A stretch of 44,686 bases of DNA, taken from contig JAILFM010000136.1 in NCBI GenBank assembly GCA_024697575.1, forward strand, positions 1 through 44,686, read 5' to 3'. This DNA is from Clostridiales bacterium (GTDB lineage Bacteria > Bacillota > Clostridia > Oscillospirales > Acutalibacteraceae). The notes below the pieces were generated by a model, which was not told the DNA's origin, ran no database searches, and saw only the letters and a program-made list of their open reading frames with translations. Numbering within the stretch: the stretch's first letter is position 1; the number at the start of each line of letters is the position of its first letter. The position numbers and the translations under genes were made by a program. Shown here one piece after another: positions 6,001 through 35,535 of the stretch.

Positions 6001-7162
6001 GGCTCAGGATGACGACGAGGTTCTCAGCGGCGGGGCGACGGTAATGCTCGGCTACATCGACGGCATCAGAGTTTATGACCCGTCACTCGGCGACAAGAAC
6101 GAAGAGAGCGTTTATCTTGCAAGCGAGCTCAACGCAGAGTTCTACAACATAATGCAGTACTCGCTTGAGGGCGAAGGGTACAGATACGACGACGGCGATC
6201 TTGAATACAAGTTCGAACCGAACGAAGTTTACCTGAAGCAGAACGGCAAGACGGCGTTCAAGGTTCTCGGCCTTAACGGCGATGTGGGTGAAAAGGTTAT
6301 GGTTTCACTCAGAGCGGTTCAAGGAGCCGGCAAGGTTGAAATCTACGGCAAGGATATGAGCAACAAGCTCACAATCGAGAGTGTTGAGCACGCGACCGAA
6401 ATGTACTATGACATTTCCGGCTATCTCAACGGTACGAACGGCTATGTGGTGATTCAGAACATCGGCACCGGCATTGTTGCCGTGGGCAATGTCAAGATAA
6501 CAAGCGAGACCAATTCCGGCGCGCGCATTGGCTACCTTGACGAGGACGATGCGGACGACATCAACTCCGCCTGGAACGCCATGGCTTCGGTACCCTCAAC
6601 AGAGTATCAGTACTCGTTCGAGGCTATCAACGAGCCTAAAGAGATTGAACTGAGCCGCGTGATAATCACACCGGATCCGGGCGATAACAACGATAACCCG
6701 GGCGGCAATAACGACAACCCCGGCGGTAACAACGATAATCCGGGCGGCAACGATGATCCCGGTAATAACGACACTCCGACCGGCGACACTCCGAAACCGG
6801 CGTCCGTAAGACTTAAGGGCAACAACCGCAAGGACACCACACTTGACTACAAGACGACCATTACCTTCCATGCAGATGTAAAGAATGCCTTCGGTATTGT
6901 CTGGTACATCAATATCGGTGACAAGACTTATTCATCCGATAAGCTTGACCCGAGCAAGTTCACCGTCGGCAAGGACGGCAGCCTGACAGTCAAGAACGTG
7001 AAGGAAGACTTCTCGGTTTACTTCACCGCGAAGGATTCAGCCGGCAAATCCGCAGCTTCACAGACACTCAGCTTCAAGGTTAAGAACAACTTCTTCGCGA
7101 AGCTTGTGGCGTTCTTCAGGACCCTGTTCGGCAGCGGCAAAACGGTCGACTGGACCGACTGA
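2..7162 (+). CDS. Giant secreted/surface protein with ~12-13 InlB B-repeat / Listeria-Bacteroides repeats (Flg_new-like), NNDNPGG linker, C-terminal Ig-like domain; 5'-truncated by window edge
   Basis: Frame is open from base 2, upstream of the TTG called at 50. Repeated GYTFxGWxT...LYAxWxxxxYxVTxN motifs; Asn/Pro/Gly linker; C-terminal domain ending NNFFAKLVAFFRTLFG; no LPXTG. Confidence 0.9.
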   Translation, partial: LTVEAGTENDTIPAGTLKCTPLTVLTLKAQWRANEYAVTLNANGTDNAEGFTKNAVYEEGKTGTVTFNVTYDKTYLDGYKTIADSAEDLPTAYLTGYIFDGWYTIKDSDITTKNTSASGNDNAKYLVTKDTFYNTVNGKTYETGKAVPKAHTLYAHWTAITYTVHYNANDATGGSTADTKHQYDVSEDIRDTKGNLNENGFERIYTVTYNINDSTQSNGTTAASYAAPLSAANTTSTYTFEGWSAYEAKDVNTAHSESWNLSSAANSGSVYHNNLSSTQGATVQMYAMWDSHEITLPTPSRTGYTFKGWYTVKYSRTQAAAQANFIGNGGDTWTPEADITLYAYWTPDTYEVTLDSENYSTQSSMVDHAATNAGTVKVTATYDSPMPAATMPAKSGYTFNGYFVTKTAAAAASAADYYTNANISGDQYYNANGSSAKNWVIASDTTLYAKWSRNEYTVTYKNAVALDENGNAFEGAVMPQDDVRLVANDGTLTNNNSFTNGTGFRFDNEKNTIEATLQANPLGGTTAATWEVPFILRKAQAKGYDFIGWTLTATGGKFRTGMGTTADPYRELDTLVVKYTGEDAIGFFDKDGNAVNIDNKTLNDVLETEGNSYTLENAAYMYIPIGSYGHVTASAIWQVKAWDVVFNVNTSALTVHNPPKTHSNCPYETNGSYSVRVRYDYAVPAVGKATSGATENTALVMPTYEGYTFLGYFTQATGGTKYYTADGTPCHGNSTDHPLWKESETTQNLYAHWQENTYEITYALDGGTLPAGAADGTGEGSKAQYSISNTDYTLPAPTKTGYTFDYWTVEDEGTYSNSNWRVFDNVNSVEGNQIASGTNMTGRFGNVTLKANWHINQSTLIVKVGGGETWTYTVPDKSQILKVTGWSESDTSVYNAETGVITVTGDGSEHSVVRITAPYGTVLDNIPAPAKTGYKLKNFTPDNTNTDTSVGGVFTQGSTTETRHRATADIENSEDKRETETINVFTFGSYTFGAIDGESFTISTYGSGNWNAITYQVVFEGTQKDTGEMVNETQKAANEPKNVWWLKYGENSDLPANAFSKAGYDFVGWTSALFNWQKDKLYSDSGNTQEIEQLIWRQGVAMADGRDSGGNTVKVQKFTARTVNYYLDGHSVRNLATEQNDAVTLYAIWKARQYTITVNRMNGKIGTDPNTMGNIDPAVFTLTGYYDEDLSTFEFKLRYTTGGSTYETSNVNSNGLPQGDSTGKYVEFTVYRNSWFAGSSTKAYLSRSGYSFKGWSSIEEEPRLETAFDQTKTLTNSVRFSRSSVQFSEVDGSASTATIYARWSPNTYKVTFDLNKPENASNDISAAFTANFDARQTANDRPKPTYRLVKDGDEKNISYELEGCYSGDTYKVITDTPALKGWTFVGWNTEKNGSGEWYDGSSTVKHYIDDKGNEYSEDELDILTVAGGANTYYRKSTQLTRIGSTAYYHDGVFKYTGSEIVSVHGRTYKKGSDINIVTVTENAKKTFKYEGDQAGQAHNLYAQWRASSYTVAYIGGSETGSNTYEYTPAAYRSNGELIGNVKQYRIETGFDDEGYLYENRIETAYAPYTQTFTYDTAQEMTANLYTLENGDEHWFLSSWKFFNESGSKDYVGGSEIADGIVDGDGKTIKVYAVWALLRISSKKGTYDFGAAAAFKVVDIAAHENAEGVSVGADSVPSNAVLTFGPALSVDGNVNTVSTKSNLETTDFSGSGYKVVEVKLSDISSSQTIIDRIANFIPGSGCSGVQTFYYELYYDGQYICEKVVMYPRNVVLYEDDSFSEGDSVFNDGHNNGAGWYKQGEGKITTNSEISTVFGYSSALDPYKLRNSADPSTKALAKLYEAGTFSGSVVTKTILTPQVPVSTTREFEFTGRGFDLVSACGSNNAALVIYVWQKDGDNYNPIAITTVDTYTGSGNELLVNGLETQVPVYHFMASEEATYLVQVYAVFLDEGGANVNSAGEKDIRSSVITQLEDYGLYVEDEIFDMKWMDENSVLNGGTGRAQAQDDDEVLSGGATVMLGYIDGIRVYDPSLGDKNEESVYLASELNAEFYNIMQYSLEGEGYRYDDGDLEYKFEPNEVYLKQNGKTAFKVLGLNGDVGEKVMVSLRAVQGAGKVEIYGKDMSNKLTIESVEHATEMYYDISGYLNGTNGYVVIQNIGTGIVAVGNVKITSETNSGARIGYLDEDDADDINSAWNAMASVPSTEYQYSFEAINEPKEIELSRVIITPDPGDNNDNPGGNNDNPGGNNDNPGGNDDPGNNDTPTGDTPKPASVRLKGNNRKDTTLDYKTTITFHADVKNAFGIVWYINIGDKTYSSDKLDPSKFTVGKDGSLTVKNVKEDFSVYFTAKDSAGKSAASQTLSFKVKNNFFAKLVAFFRTLFGSGKTVDWTD
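6686..6780 (+). repeat. Degenerate 21-bp tandem repeat encoding the NNDNPGG linker
   Basis: Three consecutive units aac-aac-gat-aac-ccg-ggc-ggc (with synonymous variation) followed by a degraded unit. Confidence 0.85.
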
Positions 7163-7176
7163 TAATCAACTGACGG

Positions 7177-7212
7177 TTTTCCTCCCTCCCTTTGAGGGGG
7201 GGAGGGAAGCCG
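7177..7212 (+). terminator. Putative hairpin terminator after the giant surface gene
   Basis: ttttcctccctccctttgagggggggagggaag: strong GC-rich inverted repeat 15-20 nt after the stop codon. Confidence 0.5.
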
Positions 7213-7273
7213 AAGACAGACGGCGGGGAATCCTCAGCCGGACTGTAATTAAAATTAGATGTGGAGAAAAAAT

Positions 7274-7819
7274 ATGAAAAAATTTGTTTGCCCCGTATGC
7301 GGCTATGTTCACGAAGGTGATTCCGCGCCCGAAAAATGCCCCCAGTGCGGTGTTCCCGGTTCAAAGTTCACCGAGATGAAGGATGAAAATCTCACCTGGG
7401 CTGCCGAACATGTTGTCGGCGTAGCCAAGGGCGTTGACCCCGCGATTATTGAAGGGTTAAGAGCTAACTTCAACGGTGAATGCAGTGAGGTCGGCATGTA
7501 TCTTGCAATGGCAAGGGTTGCCTACCGCGAAGGGTACCCCGAAATCGGTTTATATTGGGAAAAAGCCGCTTTTGAAGAGGCGGAGCACGCTGCCAAATTT
7601 GCCGAGCTTCTCGGCGAGGTTGTTACGGACAGCACAAAGAAGAACCTTGAAATGAGAGTTGAGGCTGAAAACGGCGCCACCGCCGGTAAAACCGAGCTTG
7701 CGAAGCTTGCCAAGGCTCAGGGCCTTGACGCTATTCATGACACCGTTCATGAAATGGCGCGCGACGAAGCAAGGCACGGCAAAGCGCTCAAAGGTCTTCT
7801 TGACAGATATTTCGGTTAA
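7274..7819 (+). CDS. Reverse-type rubrerythrin (N-terminal rubredoxin domain + ferritin-like diiron domain; NADH peroxidase family)
   Basis: [29 protein letters not shown] (two CxxC) followed by ExxH/EARH ferritin-like helices. Start moved from 7259 to ATG 7274, which has an upstream ggag. Confidence 0.92.
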
Positions 7820-7870
7820 AAACAATATCATGGGCTGTCGCATTTAAGCGAAAAACAAACAGAAGCCAAA

Positions 7871-7905
7871 AAGGCTCGCGGGGTTATGAAAAACTCCGCG
7901 GGCCT
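7871..7905 (+). terminator. Rho-independent-like terminator after rubrerythrin
   Basis: aaggctcgcggggtt-atgaaa-aactccgcgggcctt stem, followed by tgatttt. Confidence 0.65.
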
Positions 7906-7920
7906 TTGATTTTGCTCTCT

Positions 7921-7947
7921 CAAGACAGGGGACGGTTCTCTGCCTTG
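7921..7947. repeat. REP-like imperfect palindrome (caagacaggggacggttctctgccttg)
   Basis: Imperfect inverted repeat CAAG.CAG...CTG.CTTG in intergenic DNA; resembles the 'gacaggggacggttctctg' motif common near Y1/RAYT transposases in Firmicutes (from memory). Confidence 0.4.
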
Positions 7948-7957
7948 CTTTTTTCTC

Positions 7958-7986
7958 TTGACAAATTTTTGCTTTATTAATATTAT
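7958..7986 (+). promoter_or_regulatory. SigA-type promoter for the VWA gene
   Basis: TTGACA (7958-7963), 17-nt spacer, TATTAT (7981-7986). Confidence 0.6.
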
Positions 7987-8053
7987 ATATATTGGATAAA
8001 ACTATACGAAACGTTCAAACAACAGTTTAAATCTATTTCCGGGAGGTATCGCT

Positions 8054-11000
8054 ATGAAAAGAACAAAGAGCGCCGTAAGCATTCTTTTAGCTTTTTTGAT
8101 GCTTTTAAGCTGCGCCGGCACGGTTATGCCCGCCTTCGCTCTTGGTGAAGACGATAAGCTTACAAGCGTTGACGCGGCGGTTGAAACACTCAGGGGCGGC
8201 AAATGCCCGCCGAAACAGATGTATTCATCGGAGGGAGATCAGAACACATACACAGCCGAGGCCATTTGCTGGTACGATACCGAGGGCAACGAGCTGAGCG
8301 ATGACTTTGTCTTCACCCTTGACAATGATTACTGCCTTTTGTATTCCGCTACGGCGACCGGTTACCATTATTTTGACATTAATGACCTGCCGGAAAGCTA
8401 TGTCAACGGCATCAGAGCGGTCCCTCTGGGCGATAAGGATGCCGGCCTTCCGGCATGGCTTAACACCGAGGGCTATGAAGGTAATGACAGGACTCAGTAT
8501 TATTTGGTAACATTAACAGCGTTTGACGACGGTGTTATCGATATGTTCAAGGTAACAATCGATGCTCGCGAGGGCTACACCGGCATGGACTACGATAAAC
8601 TCATCACCTTAAGCGGCGCGCCCACACAGCTGAGCGACAAAATGCAGTTAAACGGCGTTATTATCAAAAACCTTTCAAACCCCGACGACACGAGCGGCGT
8701 TATGAAGGTCGGCGATACCTACAGCATTGAGTTTGACGTTGAAGCGAGCGAAGGGTACAGGTTTTCACCCTACGGCACGGTGGTGACTGAGGGCTGCATC
8801 TACATCAGCGCCCAGTGGTCGCTGAACACAGAAGACCCCGAAAATGTATATGTCTATATCGCGTGCGAAGCGTGGAGCGAAGTTAATGACAGCGAAGAGG
8901 GCGAAGCGGACCTTATAACCGGCAAAACCGTTGATTTTGCCGACGGCACTGCGGCTGTCACACTTTCGGCTTTTTGCGAAAAGATGAACGCGAGGGTTAA
9001 GTACAGTTCGGAACCTGTTGACATAGTGTTGCTTATAGATACGTCAAGGTCGATGATACTGTATAATATGGCAAACAACAAGACCCGTCTTCAGGTGCTC
9101 AAGGACACCGCGACAGGTTTTATTGACAATGTAAGCGAGCGCGCGGGAACGAGCGGAGCAAACCACAGAATGGCAATAGTGACATTCAGCTCCTCCGCCA
9201 AGAGGATGACCGGGTCCTCAAACAGCACCGCGTTTGTCGACGCCCGGAGCGAAAGCTCATCACTTAAAAGCATTATCAATAATCTCAGAGGCGACGGCGG
9301 CACAAGGGCGGACTACGGCTTTGATACCGTTCAGAGTATCCTCGCCGCCAATAACGACGGGCGCAAAAAGGTTGTCGTGTTCTTAACCGATGGTGTTCCG
9401 ACAACAAGCTCCGAATTCAACGAATCCGTTGCCAACAGCGCAATAGCTATTGCAAACAACCTCAAAAACACTTACCTTGCCGATATTTACGCTGTCGGTA
9501 TCAGCGTTGACGCAAACCCCAGGGCGCAGATAGTTGAAAATCCGAGGGCCGAAGAAGACAAGATGAATATGTTTATGCACTTTGTTTCTTCAAACTATCC
9601 TCAGGCAACCCAGATGCGTTCCGGCGGCGAACAGAAGAGTGACGGATATTTTATCACAACCGAGGATGAAGAAAGGCTCTCCGAAATCTTCAGCGGAATT
9701 ATCAGCGAGCAGCTTTCGGGCGTTATCAGATTTGAGGACCTTACTTTCTGCGATAAGATTTCAAAATATTTCACCCTCACCGCAGAGCAGGAGGCAGCGC
9801 TGCGCGGGGACCTTGTTGAAAGATACGGCTTAACAAATGACGATATTATAATCACAAGAAACAGCGACGGCACGACGGATATTGAAATTCATCACCTCTC
9901 GCCCAAGCGTGTTTATGAAAACGGAATGCACACGGGCTATGAAATCAAGGTTAACTTTAACGTAACCGGGAATGAAAATATGATGAATCCCGGCTCATAT
10001 CCCGTGACAGTAGCCCCCGAGGGCAAGGTGAAGACAAGCGACGGTCAGACAGCGGCATATTTTGAAACACCGGATGCCGTAACGGTTTCCGGCTCAAGGG
10101 CAATTGTAAAGTACATCATCGGTGAAACGGTCTATAAAATCAAAGACACTGCCATCGGCGAAGCCGTAACAGCGCCCGACACTGAAACTATTCTCTGGGA
10201 TATTGAAGAAAATCAGACTGTAACCTCCGCCGTGACAACGGTCACAGGGCATTTCACCGGCGACACTCACACGGTCACTCTGCATATCGGCGACGATACA
10301 GATATCAGTGAGTATTACGAGGGTCAGATTATTGTTGTGCCCGAGGTAGGCGAGATTGAAGGTTATCTCTTTGCCGGATGGGATATTTTGATCCCCGCCG
10401 TTATGGGCAAAGAGGATGTTGAGGCAACGGCGGCTTTAATCCCCCATACGCACTCATTTGAAGTTACTTCAATCACGGGTGACTGTGAAAGCGGCATGAC
10501 AACGGTTGAAACCTGCGCCGGCTGCGGCAAAACAAAAACTTCGTTTACCGAGCCGTCAACTCACCAATACACTGCCCACATAACAAGCGACAGCGGTGAA
10601 CATTCAAAAGCAAGCATAGTCTGCACAAAGTGCGGCAAGGTTTATCAGGAAGAGACCACAATCAACTACAAGGCGGCTTCAAGTATTTTCACGGGCGTCA
10701 GCCGTATGATAGACATTACAATGACGGAAGACGATGTGTCGATTCAACCCGACGGCACAATCACCGTTAAGGTTGCGCTTGATCCGTCTCTTGCGAATAA
10801 ACTGTTTATCTATGTATACCGCATAAATGAGGACGGCTCAAAAACAAGGGTTGACTGCGAAAAGAAAGACGGTATGCTCTACCTCTACCTTGACCATTTC
10901 AGCCTTTACCTTCTGTGCGATGAGGAGAGTACGGACAACCTGCCCGGTTATGAAGAAGTGGCGCAGGCTGTAAGCAACTACAGAGAGGTTATAATAAACG

Positions 11001-11329
11001 GCGCGCCCGAAAGCGGTGAAATGAAGCTTGATTACGGCAAAACAGCTGTCTTCACCTGCAAAGCGGACGGTATGCAAAAGAATGAAAAAATCGTCTGGGA
11101 TGTTCAGGGAAAAGTCGAATCCTTCTCCGTTTCACCCGACGGCATGACCTGCACGGTTCAGAAGGGCACCGGCGATTATACCGTGACGTGTTCTCTTCTT
11201 GACGAATATGACGCTGTGATAAGCCGGACAAGTGAAAAAATCACCGTCAACCGCGGGTTCTTCATCATTCTCAAGTGGTTCTTTATTCATCTGTTCAAAC
11301 CCGATGCTCTTATTTGGGAGCAGAAATAA
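8054..11329 (+). CDS. Secreted VWA-domain surface protein with CxxC motifs and C-terminal Ig-like domain/aromatic tail
   Basis: Signal peptide MKRTKSAVSILLAFLMLLSCAGTVMPAFA; MIDAS DTSRS in VDIVLLIDTSRSMI, later VVVFLTDGVPT; CAGCGK/CTKCGK; C-term NRGFFIILKWFFIHLFKPD; RBS gggagg. Confidence 0.9.
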   Translation: MKRTKSAVSILLAFLMLLSCAGTVMPAFALGEDDKLTSVDAAVETLRGGKCPPKQMYSSEGDQNTYTAEAICWYDTEGNELSDDFVFTLDNDYCLLYSATATGYHYFDINDLPESYVNGIRAVPLGDKDAGLPAWLNTEGYEGNDRTQYYLVTLTAFDDGVIDMFKVTIDAREGYTGMDYDKLITLSGAPTQLSDKMQLNGVIIKNLSNPDDTSGVMKVGDTYSIEFDVEASEGYRFSPYGTVVTEGCIYISAQWSLNTEDPENVYVYIACEAWSEVNDSEEGEADLITGKTVDFADGTAAVTLSAFCEKMNARVKYSSEPVDIVLLIDTSRSMILYNMANNKTRLQVLKDTATGFIDNVSERAGTSGANHRMAIVTFSSSAKRMTGSSNSTAFVDARSESSSLKSIINNLRGDGGTRADYGFDTVQSILAANNDGRKKVVVFLTDGVPTTSSEFNESVANSAIAIANNLKNTYLADIYAVGISVDANPRAQIVENPRAEEDKMNMFMHFVSSNYPQATQMRSGGEQKSDGYFITTEDEERLSEIFSGIISEQLSGVIRFEDLTFCDKISKYFTLTAEQEAALRGDLVERYGLTNDDIIITRNSDGTTDIEIHHLSPKRVYENGMHTGYEIKVNFNVTGNENMMNPGSYPVTVAPEGKVKTSDGQTAAYFETPDAVTVSGSRAIVKYIIGETVYKIKDTAIGEAVTAPDTETILWDIEENQTVTSAVTTVTGHFTGDTHTVTLHIGDDTDISEYYEGQIIVVPEVGEIEGYLFAGWDILIPAVMGKEDVEATAALIPHTHSFEVTSITGDCESGMTTVETCAGCGKTKTSFTEPSTHQYTAHITSDSGEHSKASIVCTKCGKVYQEETTINYKAASSIFTGVSRMIDITMTEDDVSIQPDGTITVKVALDPSLANKLFIYVYRINEDGSKTRVDCEKKDGMLYLYLDHFSLYLLCDEESTDNLPGYEEVAQAVSNYREVIINGAPESGEMKLDYGKTAVFTCKADGMQKNEKIVWDVQGKVESFSVSPDGMTCTVQKGTGDYTVTCSLLDEYDAVISRTSEKITVNRGFFIILKWFFIHLFKPDALIWEQK

Positions 11330-11390
11330 ACGTAAGGTTAAAAAAGACAACTTTTAATAAATAATTATAATTGAAAGGAAACTGCTTTTT

Positions 11391-13178
11391 ATGAAACGTT
11401 TATCCGGCAGAATCCTGAGTGTGATTCTTGCGTTAACGCTGTTGCTTGGCTCTTTTGCAACATTTGCGGCGGCAGAGCAAAAAGATACCGGAGCTGCTTG
11501 CGGCGGCGATTGCGGATACTGCCCGGTTATCCTTATCCCCGGCAACTTCCAGTCGCCGGTCTATCTGTATGACGATGACGGCAACAAAGTTGAATCCATG
11601 GCGCTCGCAACGGGACTGTACGCGGATTTTACCGCGAAGGATCTGATGCGCTATGCCGTTAAGCTTTTGACTCCTTTTTTGGCTACCGTTGCTTTGCAGA
11701 GAGACGCCGGGCTGTCAAAAGCTGTCGGAAATGTCGTGACTCAGGCGTTTCAAAAAGACTTCAAGGATAACGAGGGTAATCACCTTTATAACATAAGACC
11801 CACCGTATATAAACAAAGCATGGCAAGCTATTCTGCCGAGGAGAAGCAGTTTATTTATAACCAGTTCCCGCTTAAAGGTTATTCCGAAATAGCCGGTGAG
11901 GATCATTTGTTCTTCTTTTCATATGATTCCCTGGGCTCGATTTCTGCGTTGGCGGATGACCTGTATAACTATATTCAGACTGTTAAGGAAGAGACCGGGC
12001 ATGACAAGGTTAATCTTGTTCCCGTCAGCCAGGGCGCAACCATTGCCGGCGCAATGATTGAAAGGTACCGCGACGAAGTTGCCGGAGACCTTCACCGCAT
12101 AGTGCTTGCCGTTCCGGCGCTTGACGGCTCATATCTTCTGGGCAAGATTTTCAGCAGCGGTTTTAACAAAAGCGACGAGTTCATATATCACGATCTTTTC
12201 CCCTTCCTGCTCGGTGACAGCGCGGCGGCATACGCTTTGAACCTTGCTATCCGCCTGTTGCCCAGAAGCGCTGTGAATAATATCTTTGACAGCGCGGTGA
12301 AGGCTATGGAGCCGGTTGTTGTCAATTCCTCTTGTATGTGGGCGCTGACACCCGCTTCCGAATATGAAACGCTTTATCAGCGGTATATGACAGACGGTAG
12401 CCGTGAGAAGGTGCGCCGGGAGGTTGAATTCCTGCATACCGCTCAGGCAAATATACGCGACAATCTGTTGTACCTAAAGAGCACCGGCATAGAAATATTT
12501 GACCTTGTCAATTATGACGGAAAGTTCTTTCCTCTCTTTGAAGGGTGGGAAAAATACAACGCCGACGGTATCATCCAGGTGGACTCCACCTCCGCCGGAG
12601 CGTACAGTGTACCCATAAACGAAACTTTGCCCGCTGATTACAGGCAGAAGAACACCTATTGCACCTGCGGCGGCAATCACATTTCTCCCTCACGCACTCT
12701 TGACGCTTCGACAGGCTATTTATGCGAAACAACCTTCTATTTTCAGTACGGCGAGCACATCGGCTCGGCGTTCAACGATGTTTTCATCCGCCTTGCGATC
12801 GCTTTGCTGACAGATGACACTCTCACCTCAGTCCATTCTTATCCCGACAGATTTCCGCAGTTTAACACGGTGCGCCAGGGCGGTTTTGCTATGAGAGACA
12901 CTGTCGCCAAGGTGCGTAAAGAAGTTGATTTTAAATCTTTAAACTCAAAAGACCGTGAAGAACTGACGGCTTTGCTGGATGAATGCGACGCAATGCTTGA
13001 CAGCACCGTTGTTGACCTTGACGCGTACAAAAGCGCCGGTCAAAGGCTTGACGACATTCTTGTTCGCATAGGCTATATGCCCGCGCCGGAGCAGCCGTCA
13101 CGCTCTCAGGTTCGCTTGACAAACTTCCTTCACAAATTGAGCGAGCGTATTTACTCTTTACGCGGCGCAAGAAAATAA
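11391..13178 (+). CDS. Secreted alpha/beta-hydrolase, LCAT/lipase-like
   Basis: Signal peptide MKRLSGRILSVILALTLLLGSFATFAAA; CPVILIPGN oxyanion-type loop; nucleophile-elbow-like VNLVPVSQGA; RBS gaaagga. Confidence 0.75.
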   Translation: MKRLSGRILSVILALTLLLGSFATFAAAEQKDTGAACGGDCGYCPVILIPGNFQSPVYLYDDDGNKVESMALATGLYADFTAKDLMRYAVKLLTPFLATVALQRDAGLSKAVGNVVTQAFQKDFKDNEGNHLYNIRPTVYKQSMASYSAEEKQFIYNQFPLKGYSEIAGEDHLFFFSYDSLGSISALADDLYNYIQTVKEETGHDKVNLVPVSQGATIAGAMIERYRDEVAGDLHRIVLAVPALDGSYLLGKIFSSGFNKSDEFIYHDLFPFLLGDSAAAYALNLAIRLLPRSAVNNIFDSAVKAMEPVVVNSSCMWALTPASEYETLYQRYMTDGSREKVRREVEFLHTAQANIRDNLLYLKSTGIEIFDLVNYDGKFFPLFEGWEKYNADGIIQVDSTSAGAYSVPINETLPADYRQKNTYCTCGGNHISPSRTLDASTGYLCETTFYFQYGEHIGSAFNDVFIRLAIALLTDDTLTSVHSYPDRFPQFNTVRQGGFAMRDTVAKVRKEVDFKSLNSKDREELTALLDECDAMLDSTVVDLDAYKSAGQRLDDILVRIGYMPAPEQPSRSQVRLTNFLHKLSERIYSLRGARK

Positions 13179-13203
13179 AAACAGCCCTTCCGGCTGTGAA
13201 AAA

Positions 13204-13275
13204 GAAGCTGTAAATAAACAGCTTCATTATAAAAAAATCCGGAGCCGACTTTTTTCAAGTCCTCCGGATTTTTTT
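13204..13275 (+). terminator. Two consecutive hairpins; second is tccggagccgacttttttcaagtcctccggatttttt (left copy of a duplicated terminator)
   Basis: gaagctgt/acagcttc hairpin, then atccggag...ctccggat stem followed by T7. Confidence 0.8.
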
Positions 13276-13290
13276 CAGGTCATTTATCTA

Positions 13291-13452: not shown

Positions 13453-13472
13453 TAAAGCCCTTTTTCATGCTT

Positions 13473-23022: not shown

Positions 23023-24078
23023 ATGCGCTCATTTGAGGAACTTGTCAGTACCGCCGCTGCAGCCAGAGCGTCTGATATACATATTTGTACAGGTTATGCG
23101 CCTTCAATGCGTCTTCATGGTGATATCCGGCCGATTGTCGAGGGTGCGCTGACTGCGGAAGAAGCGCAGTCAATAGCCTACAGTATTTTGAATGATGTCC
23201 GTAAAGAGACTTTGAAAACAAAGGGCGAAGTTGACTTTGCCTACACCTGCTCCGGTACCCGTATGAGGTGCAATGTTTACCATGAAGGCGGCAATGTCGC
23301 CTTGGCGGTGCGTCTGCTTTCAAAGGGTGTTCCGGCGTTTAACACTCTTGGCCTTCCGCCGGGGCTTCTTGAAATGTGTGACAAAAAGAGGGGCCTGATC
23401 CTTGTTACCGGTATCACCGGCAGCGGTAAGTCAACCACATTGGCGTCAATTGTTCAGGAGATTAATAACAGGCACGATTATCATATTCTGACAATCGAAG
23501 AGCCTGTTGAATACATATATGACAAAGGCCGTTCGTTAATTAACCAGCGTGAGGTCGGTTCGGACTCTACGTCTTTTGCCTCCTGCCTTCGCGCCGCTTT
23601 GCGTCAGGACCCTGATGTTATTCTGCTTGGCGAAATGCGTGACAGTGAGACAATTTCAACCGCTATCAGCGCGGCTGAAACCGGACACCTTGTTTTGTCA
23701 ACCCTTCATACCGTCAGCGCTGCGGGCGCGGTTGACCGTATTATCGACTCTTTCAATCCCCATCAGCAGCAGCAGATAAGGTCGCAGCTTGCCGAGGCGC
23801 TTGAGGTAGTTGTTTCACAGCAACTTATTCCCCGTGCCGACGGCGCCGGCCGTGTGGTTGCGTGCGAGGTTATGTTCTGCAACAACGCCGTGCGTTCACT
23901 CATACGCGAGGGCAAAACATATCAGATTCCCAACACTATGCTGACATCCAAAAAGCAGGGTATGCAGCTTATGGATGACGCAATTTATGACCTTTATGCC
24001 CGCGGCAAAATATCGGCGGATAATGCTGTTAAATTTGCTCAGGACAGGGAGATAATGGGCAGGAAGGTCATCATATAA
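23023..24078 (+). CDS. pilT: PilT-type ATPase (type IV pilus retraction / T2S family)
   Basis: GITGSGKSTTLAS, LTIEEPVEYIYDK, RAALRQDPDVILLGEMRDSETISTAISAAETGHLVLSTLHT. Confidence 0.93.
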   Translation: MRSFEELVSTAAAARASDIHICTGYAPSMRLHGDIRPIVEGALTAEEAQSIAYSILNDVRKETLKTKGEVDFAYTCSGTRMRCNVYHEGGNVALAVRLLSKGVPAFNTLGLPPGLLEMCDKKRGLILVTGITGSGKSTTLASIVQEINNRHDYHILTIEEPVEYIYDKGRSLINQREVGSDSTSFASCLRAALRQDPDVILLGEMRDSETISTAISAAETGHLVLSTLHTVSAAGAVDRIIDSFNPHQQQQIRSQLAEALEVVVSQQLIPRADGAGRVVACEVMFCNNAVRSLIREGKTYQIPNTMLTSKKQGMQLMDDAIYDLYARGKISADNAVKFAQDREIMGRKVII

Positions 24079-24131
24079 CGCACTCGTTTGTTGGCAGACA
24101 CAGTTAAGCTTCATAATCGGAGGATTTGTAA

Positions 24132-25349
24132 ATGTCCAATTTTATCTATACTGCTCTTAACGAAGAGGGCAAAGAAGTCAAAGGTACCGTGCAGGCGGAG
24201 AATAAAGAAGAAGCTATTTCCAAAGTTAAAGCCAAGGGCATAACGCCCTTAAAGGTTGAAGCGCAGACGGCGATGAACTCGTCAATCACTCTCAGCTTTC
24301 TTCAAAAAAAGCCGACACCTAAGGATATGTCGCTGTTTTGCCGCCAGATGGTGTCGATTCTGTCCGCCGGCGTAAGTATGTCGGAGGCGCTCGAAATGCT
24401 CGGCGAACAGACAGAAAATAAAATGCTTAAAGATGCAATTGTCGGCTGCCGTATGAGAATCGAGGGCGGTTCATCAATGAATGAGGCGATGCTTGACTTC
24501 CCGAAGGTTTTTCCCGATATTTTTGTGACTATGATAGCTGCCGGTGAAGAATCCGGTTCACTTGAGATTTCTTTCACTCGAATGGCTGAGAAATTTGAAA
24601 AAGATACAAAGATGAAGGCCCTTGTCAAAAAATCGACAATGTACCCCATCGTTCTCGGCATTATTGTTGTTGCGGTTATCGTCTTCATGCTCAGTTTTAT
24701 CGTTCCCAAGTTCCAGGATTTCCTTGGCTCTCTGGGCGGTTCGCTTCCGCCGCTGACGCAGTTCATTGTTAACGCTTCCGACTTTTTCAAAGCTCATTAC
24801 ATTCTTATTATTTTGGCCATAGTTGTGCTTGTTGTGGCTTTCAAGATGTTCAAAAAGACCACTTTCGGCCTTCATCTTGTTGATAAAATCAAGCTTAAAG
24901 CTCCGCTTGTCGGTAATCTTACGGTGAGAACCGCCTGCTCAAACATGATGAGAACGCTTTCGACCCTTATTTCAACCGGTATTTCGATGATAGATGCCAT
25001 TGATATCTGCTCCGATACAATGACAAATGTCTATTATAAAGAAGCGATGGCGTCCATTAAGTCTGAGGTGGCTCAGGGTACCGCGCTTTCCGAAGCGATT
25101 GAAGGCACAAAGCTTTTCCCGCCGATGGTCTTTCATATGACCAGAATCGGTGAAGAAACCGGTAATCTTACGGCCATGCTCGACCGCTCTGCCGACTATT
25201 ATGACCAGGAAGTTCAGTCGGCGACCGAGGCGATGACAGCCGCTCTTGAACCGATTATCATCGTTGTTATGGCGGGCATTGTAGGCACGATGGTTATTTC
25301 GCTTCTTATGCCCATGATGAGTATGTACGATTCACTCGACTCCATTTAA
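24132..25349 (+). CDS. pilC: PilC/GspF-family inner-membrane platform protein
   Basis: YTALNEEGKEVKGTVQAENKEEA; FCRQMVSILSAGVSMSEALEML; duplicated T2SSF domains. Confidence 0.92.
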   Translation: MSNFIYTALNEEGKEVKGTVQAENKEEAISKVKAKGITPLKVEAQTAMNSSITLSFLQKKPTPKDMSLFCRQMVSILSAGVSMSEALEMLGEQTENKMLKDAIVGCRMRIEGGSSMNEAMLDFPKVFPDIFVTMIAAGEESGSLEISFTRMAEKFEKDTKMKALVKKSTMYPIVLGIIVVAVIVFMLSFIVPKFQDFLGSLGGSLPPLTQFIVNASDFFKAHYILIILAIVVLVVAFKMFKKTTFGLHLVDKIKLKAPLVGNLTVRTACSNMMRTLSTLISTGISMIDAIDICSDTMTNVYYKEAMASIKSEVAQGTALSEAIEGTKLFPPMVFHMTRIGEETGNLTAMLDRSADYYDQEVQSATEAMTAALEPIIIVVMAGIVGTMVISLLMPMMSMYDSLDSI

Positions 25350-27943: not shown

Positions 27944-27950
27944 GGGAAAA

Positions 27951-28484
27951 ATGAAACAGACAAAAAAATGTGCTTTGGGCGGTATTATTGCCGCCCTTTC
28001 GCTTGCTGTGATGATTTGTGTGGCGCTTGTACCTTTTATGACCTATGCTCTGCCGGCGGCGGCAGGCGCGCTGCTTGTGATAATTGTTATTGAAATCGGC
28101 AAGAAATGGGCTTTTGCCGTCTATGCCGCCGTGGCTCTTCTGGGCATTTTTCTTGTACCCGATAAAGAGGTGGCGGCAATGTACCTCGCTTTTTTCGGCT
28201 ATTATCCGATTTTAAAGTCGGCAATCGAAGGGCATACCGGCAAAATTACCGGTTTGCTTTTGAAAGTTGCGGTGTTCCTTGTGACAATGATTGCCTCATA
28301 CTGGTTGCTTATTAACCTTATGGGTATTTCCATTGATGAAACGGAGCGCTTCGGAGTGTGGGCGTATCCCATCCTTTTGGGTATGGGAGCTTTTGCTTTT
28401 GTAATGTATGACTTTGTTTTAACAAAGGCGGTTATAATCTACCTCAAAAAATGGCGGAGAAATATATCTGCGTTTTTGAAGTGA
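27951..28484 (+). CDS. Integral membrane protein of unknown function (~5 TM)
   Basis: MKQTKKCALGGIIAALSLAVMICVALVPFMTYALPAAAGALLVIIV...; start 27951 with gagggaaaa upstream. Confidence 0.7.
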   Translation: MKQTKKCALGGIIAALSLAVMICVALVPFMTYALPAAAGALLVIIVIEIGKKWAFAVYAAVALLGIFLVPDKEVAAMYLAFFGYYPILKSAIEGHTGKITGLLLKVAVFLVTMIASYWLLINLMGISIDETERFGVWAYPILLGMGAFAFVMYDFVLTKAVIIYLKKWRRNISAFLK

Positions 28485-28499
28485 TAAAATCTTTTTTCC

Positions 28500-28529
28500 T
28501 TGACATAAAAGAGAGGGATATTGTATAAT
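28500..28529 (+). promoter_or_regulatory. SigA-type promoter for the GH109-like operon
   Basis: TTGACA 28500-28505, 18-nt spacer, TATAAT 28524-28529. Confidence 0.65.
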
Positions 28530-28569
28530 CAATCGGTATTTTCGGAATATTTATACTTTGGAGTTTAAG

Positions 28570-29865
28570 ATGAAAGAAACCGTCAGAATCGGATTTATCG
28601 GCCTTGGCGGAAGGGGCACCGGTATGCTCGGCGAATTGCTTGAGTGTGACGGCGTTACCGTGCCTGCCGTTTGCGATAAGTATGAAGACAGAGCCCGAAA
28701 GGGCGATGAAATAGTTTTTGAAAAAACCGGCGTTCATCCGGACGTTTATCTGAATCACAGGGAGCTTCTTGCCCGTGACGATATTGACGCCGTTATGATT
28801 GACACCACGTGGATAACTCATGCGCGTATTGCAATTGACGCCATGAGAGCGGGCAAGCACTGCGCCATGGAAGTCGGTGGAGCGGCGAGCGTTGAAGAAT
28901 GCTGGCAGATGGTAAGGGCGAGCGAAGAGACCGGCAAATTCTGCATGCTGCTTGAAAACTGCTGCTATGACAGAAAAGAGATGGCGCTTTTCAATATGAT
29001 GAAAAAGGGTCTTTTCGGCGAGCTTGTGCACCTGGCGGGCGGCTATGAGCACGATTTGAGGGATGAAATCTGCCTTGGCAGAGAGAACCGCCACGGCCGC
29101 CTTTATAATTTCCAGATGCGTAACGGCGAGCTTTATCCAACGCATCAGCTCGGACCGATTTCAAAAATGCTCGGCATCAACCGCAAAAACCGTTATGTCT
29201 CTCTTGTTTCAATGGCGTCAAAATCAAGGGGACTTAACAAATGGATTAAGGAAAACAAAGGCGAGGACTATGACCTTGCCGATTACGCCTTTAACCAGGG
29301 CGATGTTGTGACAACAATGATAAAATGCGCTAACGGTGAAACGGTCGTTTTAACTCACGACTGCTCGACGCCCAGAAACTATTCAAGAGCTTACAGAGTT
29401 CAGGGCACCAAGGGTGTTTATATGGAAGACGGGGACAGTATCTACCTTGAAGACAGCACTCCGCACGCCGGCGGCTGGAGGCATGACCCCGAAAAATTTG
29501 ACAAATATCTTGAAGAATACGATCACCCGCTGTGGAAGAAGTACCGTAAAGACGGCATTCACGCAGGGGGTCACGGCGGTATGGACTTTCTTGTTCTTTC
29601 CGCTTTTGTCGAGAGCGTTAAGCTTGACGCTCAGCCGCCGATTGATGTTTACGACGCGGCGACCTGGATGGCTGTGACGGTTCTTAGCGAACAGTCAATA
29701 GCTTTGGGTTCAAGCGCCGTTCCTTTCCCGGATTTTACGAGCGGCATGTGGATTGACCGCGAGCCGTACCGCCGCGGGCAGTTCTGCCTTGAAGAAGTGT
29801 GCGAGGACTGTTTTAACCCGGATGACTTTCTTACATCATCTGTCAGCACGCAAGTCGGAGAATAA
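28570..29865 (+). CDS. Gfo/Idh/MocA-family oxidoreductase, GH109-like
   Basis: RIGFIGLGGRGTGML Rossmann motif; AGKHCAMEVGGAASVEECW; GGYEHDLRDE; start at 28570. Confidence 0.8.
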   Translation: MKETVRIGFIGLGGRGTGMLGELLECDGVTVPAVCDKYEDRARKGDEIVFEKTGVHPDVYLNHRELLARDDIDAVMIDTTWITHARIAIDAMRAGKHCAMEVGGAASVEECWQMVRASEETGKFCMLLENCCYDRKEMALFNMMKKGLFGELVHLAGGYEHDLRDEICLGRENRHGRLYNFQMRNGELYPTHQLGPISKMLGINRKNRYVSLVSMASKSRGLNKWIKENKGEDYDLADYAFNQGDVVTTMIKCANGETVVLTHDCSTPRNYSRAYRVQGTKGVYMEDGDSIYLEDSTPHAGGWRHDPEKFDKYLEEYDHPLWKKYRKDGIHAGGHGGMDFLVLSAFVESVKLDAQPPIDVYDAATWMAVTVLSEQSIALGSSAVPFPDFTSGMWIDREPYRRGQFCLEEVCEDCFNPDDFLTSSVSTQVGE

Positions 29866-29903
29866 TCCGGCTTATTCATTAACATAACGGAGATTGATTG
29901 AAT

Positions 29904-30842
29904 ATGAAATATTATATCGGAGTTGACGGCGGCGGAACAAAAACGGCATTCGCCCTTTTCGATGAAAGCAAAAAAATGCTTGCCTTTCATGAAGGCCCCG
30001 GCAGTAACCACGAAAACCTTGCAACCGGTTTTCAGGGCGCAAGTGAGATTATCATGCAGGGGATTGAGACGCTTTGCAATAAGTCGGGGTTAAAAAAGGA
30101 CGCTATCGCATTTACCCTTATGGGTCTTGCGGGTATTGACCACCCTTATCAGCACGACGCAATGTGTGAACTGCTCAAGGATAAGGGCCTTAAGAATTTT
30201 GAGATTTTTAACGACGGATTTATCGTTATCAAGGCAGGCAGTCAGACAGGCAGAGCAATCGGTTACAATTGCGGCACGGGCGTTTGCTGTAACGGTATTG
30301 ACAAAAACGGCACCATGCTCCAGCTTATGGGTTTGGGTTATTTTTCCGGCGATATTTCCGGCGGTGAAAATATTGTTACAACAGCCTTCAGCTTCATTTA
30401 TGACGAACTCTTCCTCGGCCTTGAAAAGACACTTCTGACCGATATGGTTATGAAAGAATACGGCTTTAATGACAAAAAAGAGGTACTTACGCTGATTGAG
30501 AAATACGAGTCTGAGGATTGCAGGCAGTACATCAGGCAGATGATAGCGTTCTTCTTTGAGGCGGCAAAAGCGGGCGATAAGCGTTGCCTGGAATATTGCG
30601 AAAAAATGGCTCAGAGAGGCGCCTGCTCCATTGCGGCAGTTGCAAGGGAGCTTCAGTTTGACGGGGACGAAATAGAAGTTGTTCTTTCGGGTTCAATCAA
30701 TGTCAAGCTTGACAATAAGGTGTATCTTGATATGCTTAAGACTCTTGCTCAGGAAAAATGCGGCAGAAAGCTGAAATTTATAAAGCTTACAGACCTGCCG
30801 GTTACGGGCTGCGTCAACTGGATTTTACAGGATTATCAGTAA
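29904..30842 (+). CDS. BadF/BadG/N-acetylglucosamine-kinase-type sugar kinase
   Basis: MKYYIGVDGGGTKTAFALFDESKKML...GPGSNHEN; GYNCGTGVCCNG; VVLSGSI. Confidence 0.88.
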   Translation: MKYYIGVDGGGTKTAFALFDESKKMLAFHEGPGSNHENLATGFQGASEIIMQGIETLCNKSGLKKDAIAFTLMGLAGIDHPYQHDAMCELLKDKGLKNFEIFNDGFIVIKAGSQTGRAIGYNCGTGVCCNGIDKNGTMLQLMGLGYFSGDISGGENIVTTAFSFIYDELFLGLEKTLLTDMVMKEYGFNDKKEVLTLIEKYESEDCRQYIRQMIAFFFEAAKAGDKRCLEYCEKMAQRGACSIAAVARELQFDGDEIEVVLSGSINVKLDNKVYLDMLKTLAQEKCGRKLKFIKLTDLPVTGCVNWILQDYQ

Positions 30843-30897
30843 TATATAAGCGCAGGTTTTGTATTGCGCTTACCTTATTAAAACAGAGAGGTGTGTT

Positions 30898-32178
30898 ATG
30901 AAAGAAATTAATGTTGCGGTTATCGGTTCAGGCAGCACATACTGCCCCGAGCTTATAGACGGTTTTCTGAAAGCGCAGGATTCGCTTAAGCTTAAGAAAA
31001 TTTCCTTTATGGATATTGACGAGCGCAAAAGGACCATTGTCGGCAACCTTTGCATAAGAATGCTCAGGGCAGCCGGCGTTGATTGTGAAACTATGCTTAC
31101 GGATGATCTTGATGCTGCCCTTGAGGGCGCGGATTTTGTCGTTACCCAAATCCGTGTGGGCAAACTGCCCTGCCGCCATCTTGATGAGACGATACCTCTT
31201 AAGTATAACCTTATCGGTCAGGAGACAACGGGTATAGGCGGCTTTTTCAAGGCGCAGAGAACGATTCCCGTTATTAAGAATATCTGTGACAGAATCGAAG
31301 CTGTCTGCCCGAACGCGTGGCTTATCAATTTCACAAACCCCAGCGGTATCATTACGGAATTTGTCCTTAACAACACCAACGTCAAGTGCATCGGCCTTTG
31401 CAATGTTCCCATTGATATGATAGACGATGTCAAAGATGATGTCGGAGAGATGGATTACACATATGTCGGTCTTAACCACCTCAGCTGGATGACAAGCGTC
31501 AGGGTCAACGGAGAAGAGCTTATTGACAAGCTTATCGGCGAAGGCTTTACCCCCAAGGTTATGGCAAATATAAAAGACGACGGTTTTTCACTTGAAACAC
31601 TAAGGGCGATTCACGCCATTCCCTCTTCATATCTTCAGTACTATTATTGCAGGAACGCAAAGCTTAAGCATCTTCTTGAGGGCGAAAAATCCCGCGCGCA
31701 GGTATGCATGGAGATTGAGGAACAGCTTCTTGAAATGTACAGCGACGAAGGTCTTTATGTAAAACCCGCTCTTCTTGACAAGCGCGGTGGGCATAAATAT
31801 TCACTTGTTGCCGTAAATCTTATCAATTCCATAGCAAATGATACGGGTGACCTTCAGGTTGTCAACATTAAAAACGGCGATACTCTCCCGTTCCTGAAGC
31901 CGGACGATGTTATTGAAGTTGCCGCTCATGTCGGCAAGAACGGCGCTGTTGCCGTGCCCGTGGGCGAAGTGAAGAACGACCATATAATAGGTCTTATGAC
32001 CGTTGTTAAAAAATACGAGAATTATACCGTCAAGGCGGGCCGCGACGGTGATGAAGAGGCGGCTCTCAACGCTTTGCTCATTCATCCGCTTGTGGGCGAT
32101 TATGAGGCGGCAATCGGCTGCTTTAACGAGATGAAAGAAGCTCACAAAGAGTTCCTGCCTCAGTATTTCAATAAATAA
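30898..32178 (+). CDS. Family 4 glycoside hydrolase (6-phospho-glycosidase type)
   Basis: VAVIGSGSTYCPELIDGFL; TQIRVGKLPCRHLDETIPLKYNLIGQETTGIGGFFKAQRTIPVI; LINFTNPSGIITE; CNVPI; GLNHL. Confidence 0.93.
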   Translation: MKEINVAVIGSGSTYCPELIDGFLKAQDSLKLKKISFMDIDERKRTIVGNLCIRMLRAAGVDCETMLTDDLDAALEGADFVVTQIRVGKLPCRHLDETIPLKYNLIGQETTGIGGFFKAQRTIPVIKNICDRIEAVCPNAWLINFTNPSGIITEFVLNNTNVKCIGLCNVPIDMIDDVKDDVGEMDYTYVGLNHLSWMTSVRVNGEELIDKLIGEGFTPKVMANIKDDGFSLETLRAIHAIPSSYLQYYYCRNAKLKHLLEGEKSRAQVCMEIEEQLLEMYSDEGLYVKPALLDKRGGHKYSLVAVNLINSIANDTGDLQVVNIKNGDTLPFLKPDDVIEVAAHVGKNGAVAVPVGEVKNDHIIGLMTVVKKYENYTVKAGRDGDEEAALNALLIHPLVGDYEAAIGCFNEMKEAHKEFLPQYFNK

Positions 32179-32188
32179 GGGTATAGCC

Positions 32189-32737
32189 GTGGAAAAGATT
32201 GTTACATCCCTTGACGGCGTTTTCATCATTGAGCCGAAGGTGTTCGGCGATGAAAGAGGCTGGTTTTACGAAAGCTATTCGGCAGGGGAGTTCAAAAGGC
32301 TCGGTATCGATACGGTTTTTGTTCAGGATAACCGCTCTTTTTCGGCAACCAAGGGGACTTTAAGGGGTCTTCACTGCCAGAGGGGAGATGCCGCGCAGGC
32401 AAAGCTGGTTTCATGTACCCGCGGTGAAATAATCGACGTTGCGGTCGATATCCGCTTTTCTTCGCCGACGTTTTTGAAGCACATTGCCGTCAGTCTCTCT
32501 GCGGCAAACAAAAGAATGCTTTATATTCCACGGGGATTTCTTCACGGGTTTTTAACCGTTTCCGATGATGTTGAACTTTTGTATAAGGCCGATAATCTCT
32601 ATTCACCGGCTGATGACAGAAGCGTGCGCTTTGATGACCCGGCAATCGGCATTGACTGGGGCGAAGGAGACTTCATCCTTTCTCAAAAAGACAAAAACGC
32701 GCCTTTTCTTAAAGACAGCGATGTTTTGTTTGACTGA
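32189..32737 (+). CDS. rfbC: dTDP-4-dehydrorhamnose 3,5-epimerase
   Basis: DGVFIIEPKVFGDERGWFYESYS...FVQDNRSFSATKGTLRGLHCQR...VDIRFSSPTF...MLYIPRGFLHGF. Confidence 0.94.
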   Translation: MEKIVTSLDGVFIIEPKVFGDERGWFYESYSAGEFKRLGIDTVFVQDNRSFSATKGTLRGLHCQRGDAAQAKLVSCTRGEIIDVAVDIRFSSPTFLKHIAVSLSAANKRMLYIPRGFLHGFLTVSDDVELLYKADNLYSPADDRSVRFDDPAIGIDWGEGDFILSQKDKNAPFLKDSDVLFD

Positions 32738-32811
32738 TATAATATTTCGGAATCTTAAATACCGGCGTACAATGTCCGGCGGTTTTAAATCCGCGGTTTT
32801 TCGGAGGTATT

Positions 32812-35535
32812 ATGCGAAGGAAACATTTTACCGGAGCGCTATCAATAATCATTTCATCATTTTTATGCCTGCAGGTTTTTGCCTGCGGGCTTTATGCGTT
32901 TGCACAGGGTGAAGAAACACAGGAAGAAAAGGACAGTGTATTTTCTCTTTATGAAGGTGACGAGCTGACTCAAGGCGATTACATAATCGTAAGTGAGAAC
33001 GAAGCTAAGGCGCTGAAGGTGTCATCTTCCTCTTCTGCTGCCCCGGGTACTGCGGATATAACGCTTTCAGCCGACGGCAGAACAGCTGTTCTGCCGGCTG
33101 AAAACAAACAGGGTGCCGTTTTTACCGTAACTTCTGCTGGTAACATATCTTTGCCGGAGGGGACGGAATATGACGTTTATGACGAAACGGGATCTTTACT
33201 GACAGAAAACAGCCTTTTTACCTTTAAGAGCGGTGAAAAGACCCTTTGCGCCTATAACGACGGCGGCTTTGCGCTGAGAACCAGTATCGGCACAAACAGA
33301 TACTCTTCTTTTGCCGTCAGAAAAGCCGGAGGAGCGGGGATTTATTCAATCTCGGGCTATGATTTTGAAAACAGTGCCGGTGTTTCTTTCGGCTTTGAAA
33401 ACGGCACTTTTTCCTCTTACCCATCCCTTTCTGCATCCCTTGTTACCGGCTCTGTTGTTGAGGAACAAACGGTCTATATCTATACTGCATCTGTTACAAA
33501 CGAAAAAAATTATGTTATCCTTAACTCGGTTACCATCAGTCAGGGCACCTCGGCTGACAGAAATTCACCCGCAAACGATGACGGAGTAGTAGCAAATACC
33601 GAGGTCACCCTTCATGAAGCTGACTCATATATCGCCGAAAAGTATGTAACAGGCGCTCCTTCAAACGCCGTCTGGTATTTTGAAGATACCGGCAGCGGTA
33701 TAGCCGTGTCGAACGGGTCGCTTTATCTTAACTACAGCGGCGGATTGATTCTTCAAAGCGACTTTGTTGCCCCGTGGACATATTCCGACGGGAGACTCAG
33801 CGGTGAGTTTTCCGGAACGGTGAGATATTTAAGACTGAGTTCCGGCAACTGGACCGGAGGTCAGACAAAGACCAACGCCTATCTTTTTGAAGAGACGACT
33901 GCGGAAATCGAAACAACGCAAACCTTTTACAGATATACATCCGATGAGGAATACGATGTCCGCCTCTATAAATATCAGGGCGAGGCGGTTGACATTGAGG
34001 TGAATGACGATACGGCGTTTTTCAGCGCCTTGTCTGCCTTTGACTTTGATGTGCTTTCAAATGACACCCTGCCTTCGAATGCGGTTTTGAGCGGTATCGC
34101 GGCGGCGGACAGCTTTGAAAACAGCGCCGGCGGATTCAGCGAAAGACCGGTTCAGGTGTCGTCTTCGTTTTCACTCCGGAACGCTTCGGTTGTTCTTGAC
34201 GGCGGAAAAATCAGCGTAACGCCGCTTTCGTTTGACGGCGCAGTCAGATTTATTTATGAAGTGACGGCTTACGGCAGATATTATTACGCTTTGGCTGTTG
34301 CCGTGCCGAAAAGCGAAGCTGTTATCGGCAAAGACGATCTTACGCTCAGCGGTGAATGGAGCCCCGTGACATATAACGGTATTCAGGCAAATCAGGCTGT
34401 TTTAAACGCTCAAACTCCGTCGGGGCCGACGGCGTCATTCACCTTTAAGGGAACTTCTTTCGATTTAAACTGTACCGTCAGCGATGATACGGGTATTATA
34501 TTTGTTAAGGTATATTCCGCCGGCGGTGAGCTTTTGGCAAACTACTTTGTCGACACCCATTACGGCTGTCAGCCGGACAGTGACGCATTCACCTGGGTGC
34601 AGACGGGTAAAATTATCAGCGGCGTGCCCGTTATCCGCTCCGAAAACTTTGATTACGGTACATACAACGTTGTGATTGAGCCGCGGTATTCCTCCTTTTT
34701 CGATGCAAACGGTTTCGGATATTCAAAGGCGATAATCGAAAGCGTGACCGTGTATAACCCCTGCGGCGATGCGGGTTCAATGGACAGCGTCGTTAAAGCG
34801 GCGTATATGGCATCCGGAGATCTTTCGCCCGTTTACCTTAATATCAAAAACAGTCTTGTCAGCGCAGAGCAGGCGTTTGATGTAGGCTCTCTTCCTGCCG
34901 GCGCCGAATATACCGGCGGTCTTCTGGTTGACGGCTTGACCAGTCTCGAAACGGATGACTATGAAACATTCATTAAAAAATATAAGGTAAGCGGACCTAA
35001 TAATGAGGTTTATCTTGCCAAAGGGCAGGCGGTTGTTTTCAATATCAGCGTTACGGGTGCCACACAGCCGGCAAAAGCGCTCCTCGGCGCAAAAATCGCC
35101 TTTGATCCGGGTGAAAGCGCGTCGGTTCTGGTGATGAACAAAAACTCATCGTCATATACTTCTTTTACACTTGATTCTTTTAACACTGCCTTTTTTGACA
35201 TTACCGGCAATATCACCTGGAACCAAACGGAATCCGGTTTTGTGTCCGCTGAGCCGATAGTTATCTTCAATAATTCCGACAGTGTCGTTTCCCTGACTGA
35301 CATAAAGCTTTCGTTCAGCATTGAATCGGCGCCGCGGATAATGACGATGTCCGTTAATAACAAAATTCTTTCCAAAGCCGGCAGTTTTATGCGTTCAAGC
35401 GAAAACAACTCACTGCCGGAGGCGAATGCAATGCTGTTTTCAAACCGCAGAGTTGTTTCCGTTATTGAGTTTTTCCGTATAATATTTGAAAGATTTCTTG
35501 CTCTGTTCCAAAGCAGAGAATATCATAATTTTTGA
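32812..35535 (+). CDS. Secreted surface protein of unknown function; C-terminal module shared with the giant protein at 2..7162
   Basis: Signal peptide MRRKHFTGALSIIISSFLCLQVFACGLYAFA; ggaggt RBS; C-term VSVIEFFRIIFERFLALFQ; no LPXTG. Confidence 0.85.
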   Translation: MRRKHFTGALSIIISSFLCLQVFACGLYAFAQGEETQEEKDSVFSLYEGDELTQGDYIIVSENEAKALKVSSSSSAAPGTADITLSADGRTAVLPAENKQGAVFTVTSAGNISLPEGTEYDVYDETGSLLTENSLFTFKSGEKTLCAYNDGGFALRTSIGTNRYSSFAVRKAGGAGIYSISGYDFENSAGVSFGFENGTFSSYPSLSASLVTGSVVEEQTVYIYTASVTNEKNYVILNSVTISQGTSADRNSPANDDGVVANTEVTLHEADSYIAEKYVTGAPSNAVWYFEDTGSGIAVSNGSLYLNYSGGLILQSDFVAPWTYSDGRLSGEFSGTVRYLRLSSGNWTGGQTKTNAYLFEETTAEIETTQTFYRYTSDEEYDVRLYKYQGEAVDIEVNDDTAFFSALSAFDFDVLSNDTLPSNAVLSGIAAADSFENSAGGFSERPVQVSSSFSLRNASVVLDGGKISVTPLSFDGAVRFIYEVTAYGRYYYALAVAVPKSEAVIGKDDLTLSGEWSPVTYNGIQANQAVLNAQTPSGPTASFTFKGTSFDLNCTVSDDTGIIFVKVYSAGGELLANYFVDTHYGCQPDSDAFTWVQTGKIISGVPVIRSENFDYGTYNVVIEPRYSSFFDANGFGYSKAIIESVTVYNPCGDAGSMDSVVKAAYMASGDLSPVYLNIKNSLVSAEQAFDVGSLPAGAEYTGGLLVDGLTSLETDDYETFIKKYKVSGPNNEVYLAKGQAVVFNISVTGATQPAKALLGAKIAFDPGESASVLVMNKNSSSYTSFTLDSFNTAFFDITGNITWNQTESGFVSAEPIVIFNNSDSVVSLTDIKLSFSIESAPRIMTMSVNNKILSKAGSFMRSSENNSLPEANAMLFSNRRVVSVIEFFRIIFERFLALFQSREYHNF

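Follow-up and report, generated by a model that had tools for sequence, protein, structure and literature searches.

In E. coli PBP5 (DacA), an amphipathic helix of about 18 residues at the extreme C-terminus holds the protein on the outer face of the cytoplasmic membrane, and PBP5 without this helix is soluble (PMC2909392). Other anchoring suffixes have been recognised in the literature by C-terminal homology on unrelated proteins together with exchange with other anchors (PMC3237569). Regarding export, the YSIRK-G/S signal peptides are described in two reports as a distinctive extended type that co-occurs with a C-terminal LPXTG anchor (PMC5962339, PMC11898559). The way in which large proteins are retained on the surface of Clostridia without SLH domains is poorly known. 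Here we analyse a stretch of 44,686 nucleotides, hereafter the window, which is one contig (JAILFM010000136.1) of a Clostridiales bacterium assembly of 2.16 Mb in 179 contigs (GCA_024697575.1), and in which a preliminary description had pointed to three secreted proteins with a common C-terminal tail.

Tails of the window proteins

The tail, described as FFxx[LI]xxxFxxLF, is indeed present at the C-termini of all three proteins, 8-10 residues before the stop, and all of them lie on the forward strand. The first is a large protein with InlB (Listeria-Bacteroides) repeats in its translation (2..7162; Pfam PF09479, E=8e-27), whose 5' part lies beyond the contig start. An Ig-like domain of an undescribed family (6788..7090; placed by a 25-member alignment, AlphaFold pLDDT 84) precedes its tail FFAKLVAFFRTLF (7091..7129), which ends 10 residues from the stop, matches the tail HMM at E=1.9e-13 and is modelled by AlphaFold as a helix. 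The second is a von Willebrand A protein (8054..11329; Pfam VWA_2, E=2e-13) with a signal peptide called by heuristic, an Ig-like domain (10955..11257; placed by the alignment, with a weak Pfam Ig_3 match, E=0.0017, below the cut-off) and a more hydrophobic variant of the tail, FFIILKWFFIHLF (11258..11296; 10 residues from the stop, tail HMM E=1.7e-12). The third is a signal-peptide protein of 907 residues without any Pfam domain above the cut-off (32812..35535), and it carries a bare tail, FFRIIFERFLALF (35470..35508), 8 residues from the stop and without an Ig module. Furthermore, a lipase-like signal-peptide protein (11391..13178) ends in a probable degenerate bare tail, LTNFLHKLSERIYSLRGARK (13116..13175), which was assigned by homology to three lipases with clearer tails (L378, L382 and L384). 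A loosened regular expression, applied to the window frames of at least 60 residues, gave one extra match, which is not convincing (a frame of 75 residues), and a very narrow version of the DNA pattern gave no match.

The similarity of the Ig-like modules before the first two tails was borne out, since BLASTP of both modules gave E=0.002 (tail included) and both align in the 25-member family. The same is true of the lack of LPXTG, as a search for [LSNP]PxT[GNS] returned no match in the three proteins. Secretion of all three can be read only in part: the second and third proteins have signal peptides, whereas the export of the first is not readable in the window because the protein runs off the contig start. 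The spacing difference claimed for the third tail (x3 instead of x2) did not hold, although the motif is there, because this tail fits the same ungapped register of 13 residues and the difference depends only on which F is counted. We used the ungapped register because a MAFFT alignment of the three tails alone misplaced the third one. Actually, the third tail belongs to another subtype, RRVV(S/T)VIEFFRIIFxxF, common to an otherwise unrelated protein of 832 residues of the same genome (L388); the C-terminal stretch RRVV(S/T)VIEFFRIIF is all that these two proteins have in common (E=1e-6).

The window also holds genes resembling those of type IV pili or type II secretion (23023-25349; a PF00437 ATPase and a PF00482 PilC-like protein), with further ORFs downstream.

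Number, position and distribution of the tails

The own genome was examined as a sample of stretches. A degenerate DNA pattern of the tail matched 68 times in it, versus 11 for the same pattern read backwards, and the FFxxLxxFFxxLF version matched 18 times versus once (binomial p of about 2e-11 and 4e-5 respectively, treating the matches as independent). Read in frame, these matches comprise around 15 genuine tails in the assembly, lying in long frames at a distance of 1-18 residues from the stop, the rest being background in random frames or internal positions. One further tail-bearing frame (L296, C84:14880-14975) contains an in-frame TAG and is perhaps a decayed gene. The consensus is V-K-V-[NK]-x-G-F-F-x-K-L-x-A-F-F-[KR]-x-L-F-G-x-L-P-x-[VI], in which the column frequencies carry some bias, since the search pattern behind many of the rows prescribes several positions.

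Regarding the position, in 57 complete tail-bearing frames 56 of the 59 profile matches finish no more than 12 residues before the stop. Simple scripts served to call genes and signal peptides. The heuristic found a signal peptide in 41 tail carriers, and five further carriers (L039, L041, L232, L086 and L119) have one behind a GTG start or in an upstream-extended frame, so that a signal peptide is present wherever the N-terminus of a carrier can be read, and the remaining carriers are truncated or broken frames. Therefore, the tail does not occur at internal positions or in cytoplasmic proteins as often as at secreted C-termini. On signal-peptide proteins the broader class of bare helices shows only a moderate enrichment (Fisher p=0.05 and 0.06 in two genomes), which counts against the retention reading.

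At least two tails are internal. In L066 (genome G012) a signal peptide, an Ig module and the tail are followed by a CAP/SCP-like domain, the order of the modules being reversed, and in L146 the Ig module and tail are followed by InlB repeats. Thus, the tail is not confined to the very end of a protein, and this speaks against a C-terminal signal that is cut off. Two carriers, L115 and L302, are possible lipoproteins, and L115 has only half an Ig domain, after a PTTxPTT linker. If they are lipoproteins, a second anchor would be redundant, which counts against a role in retention.

Outside the own genome, every one of the 24 genus mates sampled gave between 3 and 27 matches to the tail profile at E<=1. 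The matches were clear in 23 of them (best E 2.5e-8 or lower, or close) and weak in one genome that is 64% complete. Among 300 genomes of the family, 20 matched, from 10 of 135 genera, and the matches were strong and multi-copy in four genera. Genomes of fifteen other families of the order gave at most weak matches (best E about 0.01), and among 391 genomes drawn from the class the own genome alone matched at E<=1e-4. From these samples, which judging by the titles are mostly MAGs, the tail is restricted to one lineage. The named matches come mostly from rumen, omasum, colon and faecal assemblies (labelled Clostridia, Ruminococcaceae, Oscillospiraceae or Clostridiaceae), and nearly all the carriers found are from uncultured assemblies. 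The broad DNA pattern is informative across the family for the richest genomes only, since a poly-T background dominates it. Matches in Bacteroidota, Cyanobacteria, archaea and other groups were discarded as chance, as their readable frames gave no convincing secreted C-terminus.

These scattered matches and the poly-T stretches do make a background from which a chance resemblance, or a likeness of low-complexity hydrophobic ends, could arise. Nevertheless, we consider this explanation practically untenable, because the HMM E-values go down to 1e-17 in genus mates, the pattern is in excess over its reversed form, and the matches are biased both toward the stop and toward signal-peptide proteins.

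The proposal that the tail is undescribed was also supported. No model in Pfam or NCBIfam, the described CTERM families included, matched six Ig and tail modules above the cut-off in searches with E up to 10, and six tail strings had no match among 5.39 million open-access papers.

The Ig-like domain and the character of the helix

In most carriers the tail follows an Ig-like domain at the C-terminus (25-member alignment), and bare tails are found on phosphoesterases, lipases, short proteins and the third protein of the window. AlphaFold predicts the Ig and tail module as a beta sandwich in which the tail is a helix (102-113) followed by a short strand, and a Foldseek search with the module found only generic Ig, PKD and Fn3 relatives (E>0.005). 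The helix and the next strand are predicted with high confidence adjoining the domain, as would be expected if the helix simply completed the fold of the Ig-like domain and packed on it. However, the domain is modelled equally well with and without the tail (pLDDT/pTM of 84.0/0.75 versus 84.2/0.73 for the two models), tails exist without any Ig domain, and conservation is far greater in the helix, the best-conserved part with five invariant F, than in the Ig domain, which taken alone has 13-35% identity to the window copy. Therefore, we regard a mere packing role as very improbable.

The tail had been described as amphipathic, and this is true of most copies. In most tails the hydrophobic moment has its peak at 100 degrees, and shuffled sequences reach the same value in at most 0.5% of cases for 9 of 15 tails. 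Most copies show a wide face of F, L and I and a net charge of +2 to +3, the exception being the von Willebrand A protein of the window, whose tail is uniformly hydrophobic (moment 0.22), a point against the membrane-anchor reading given below. A helix of 13 residues is too short to span a membrane.

We favour, with some reserve, the reading that the tail is a C-terminal suffix for surface retention which acts as a membrane anchor in the manner of PBP5. By this analogy the tail would probably be an in-plane anchor in the cytoplasmic membrane, at the outer leaflet, with a dedicated Ig-like domain presenting it in most carriers and direct fusion to the protein in others; it would bind the membrane, stay uncleaved and retain its protein in vivo. 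Nevertheless, the residues after the helix are also conserved (G-x-L-P-x-[VI], partly biased by the search pattern), beyond what simple partitioning into the membrane would need, and this counts against a plain lipid anchor.

The tail might instead be a docking helix for a specific surface partner (a wall polymer, or a protein of the membrane or wall) rather than for lipid. This would fit the nearly invariant aromatic positions, the conservation after the helix (with the bias just mentioned), the strand that AlphaFold places there and the presentation on a dedicated Ig-like domain, and the restriction to one lineage would fit a lineage-specific receptor. However, the bare tails diverge strongly in sequence and still remain amphipathic, and no candidate partner was identified; we therefore judge docking to be rather unlikely, although worth keeping in mind.

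Signal peptide, exchange of anchors and known systems

Some carriers have an extended signal peptide of about 43 residues, MKxxKxxLSxLLCLxMxFGTVAVGGxGFAExLDAxSVKASA (L032, L101, L107, L124, L139, L145, L388 and L390). Its late motif, [VIL][KRS][AV][SNHAK]A, occurs in 11 of the 40 tail proteins with a called signal peptide versus 4 of 236 other signal-peptide proteins, and none of these four is a convincing example. In five of seven genus genomes, a profile of the extended signal peptide gave 20 matches of nearly full length, and the tail is present in all 18 of the matched proteins that have a readable C-terminus; these 18 cases are not independent, because the profile was built from tail proteins, some of which share N-terminal domains. 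This suggests that a subset of the carriers would form one export class.

The main evidence for retention comes from comparing homologs. In a phosphoesterase family (contig C37), the three paralogs of the own genome (L040, L373 and L372) all have a signal peptide and an amphipathic C-terminus. Among their homologs, L368 has SLH repeats and L369 has a sortase-type C-terminus, whereas L374 and L375 have an N-terminal TM helix and end just before the position of the tail (...PGDNNISFSLD and ...PADNNVSFDLH respectively, versus ...PGDRDITLPAFG plus tail). L376 and L377 have neither signal peptide nor tail. Thus, homologs that are cytosolic or anchored otherwise are without the tail; three more were not counted, because of a contig end (L370), an unclear frame (L367) or another C-terminus (L371). 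In a lipase-like family, five members have the suffix (L378, L382, L384, L383 and L387) and four stop without it (L380, L379, L381 and L386). Retention is supported by this exchange of anchors, which is complete in one protein family. Since relatives have known surface anchors in its place, the tail probably represents an undescribed means of surface retention.

Many C-terminal homologies per genome on unrelated signal-peptide proteins, together with the behaviour of a suffix, are also the hallmarks by which processed sorting signals were discovered (PMC3237569), and therefore the tail could be a signal that a dedicated enzyme processes, as is the case for LPXTG, PEP-CTERM, GlyGly-CTERM or MYXO-CTERM. 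However, it has no helix of TM length, no basic C-terminal cluster and no upstream signature motif. The 57 carriers showed neither an LPXTG-like tripartite C-terminus nor an inner TM, and in the place of a C-terminal TM helix with a basic cluster there is an amphipathic segment of 13 residues. Moreover, exosortase (PF09721) is absent from the own genome and, as shown above, some tails are internal. Therefore, processing seems improbable to us, and the tail resembles a suffix for retention more than it does a sorting signal that is cut.

We also considered that the tail replaces a missing sortase, and this was ruled out, because the own genome has three proteins with the sortase domain (PF04203). 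Genomes of other families that lack strong tail matches likewise have sortases, whereas the SLH domain (PF00395) is found in none of the 25 genus genomes. The sortases of the genus mean that anchors other than the tail are available to it. Probable SPxTG-type sortase substrates of the same genome are two short signal-peptide proteins (L210:1264-1719 and L215:3227-3862) with SPDTS or SPSTG followed by a TM helix and basic residues.

Taken as a retention suffix, the tail would allow surface proteins to be listed from sequence alone and would predict the localisation of many hypothetical proteins, and it might be of use as a display tag. More tentatively, an extended signal peptide plus an amphipathic helix presented by an Ig-like domain might constitute a sortase-independent route of surface display in a clade of gut and rumen Clostridia, with up to around 26 proteins per genome attached non-covalently either to the membrane or to a lineage-specific receptor.

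Regarding the known systems, the tail resembles the LPXTG/sortase, PEP-CTERM/exosortase and GlyGly-CTERM/rhombosortase signals in that many unrelated signal-peptide proteins of a genome share the C-terminal region only, which behaves as a suffix and is exchanged with other anchors (PMC3237569). Nevertheless, it lacks their architecture of motif, TM helix and basic residues, being short, amphipathic and not strictly terminal, and no enzyme was found for it. With SLH, CWB2 and other wall-binding domains it would share the nature of a non-covalent surface module, and SLH occupies the same place in L368, although the tail is a single helix with no relation to them in sequence or fold. The nearest parallel for the pairing of an extended signal peptide with a C-terminal anchor is YSIRK-G/S with LPXTG, but here the sequence is ..VAVGGxGFAExLDAxSVKASA, the anchor is another one and the role is putative. 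Finally, the tail is like the anchor of PBP5 in being a C-terminal amphipathic helix on an exported protein. The scanned window carriers included no penicillin-binding D,D-carboxypeptidase, having VWA or InlB-repeat domains or no domain above the cut-off. Whereas the helix of PBP5 belongs to one enzyme family, here a putatively membrane-binding and lineage-specific suffix is found on many unrelated proteins, where it is often presented by an Ig-like domain.
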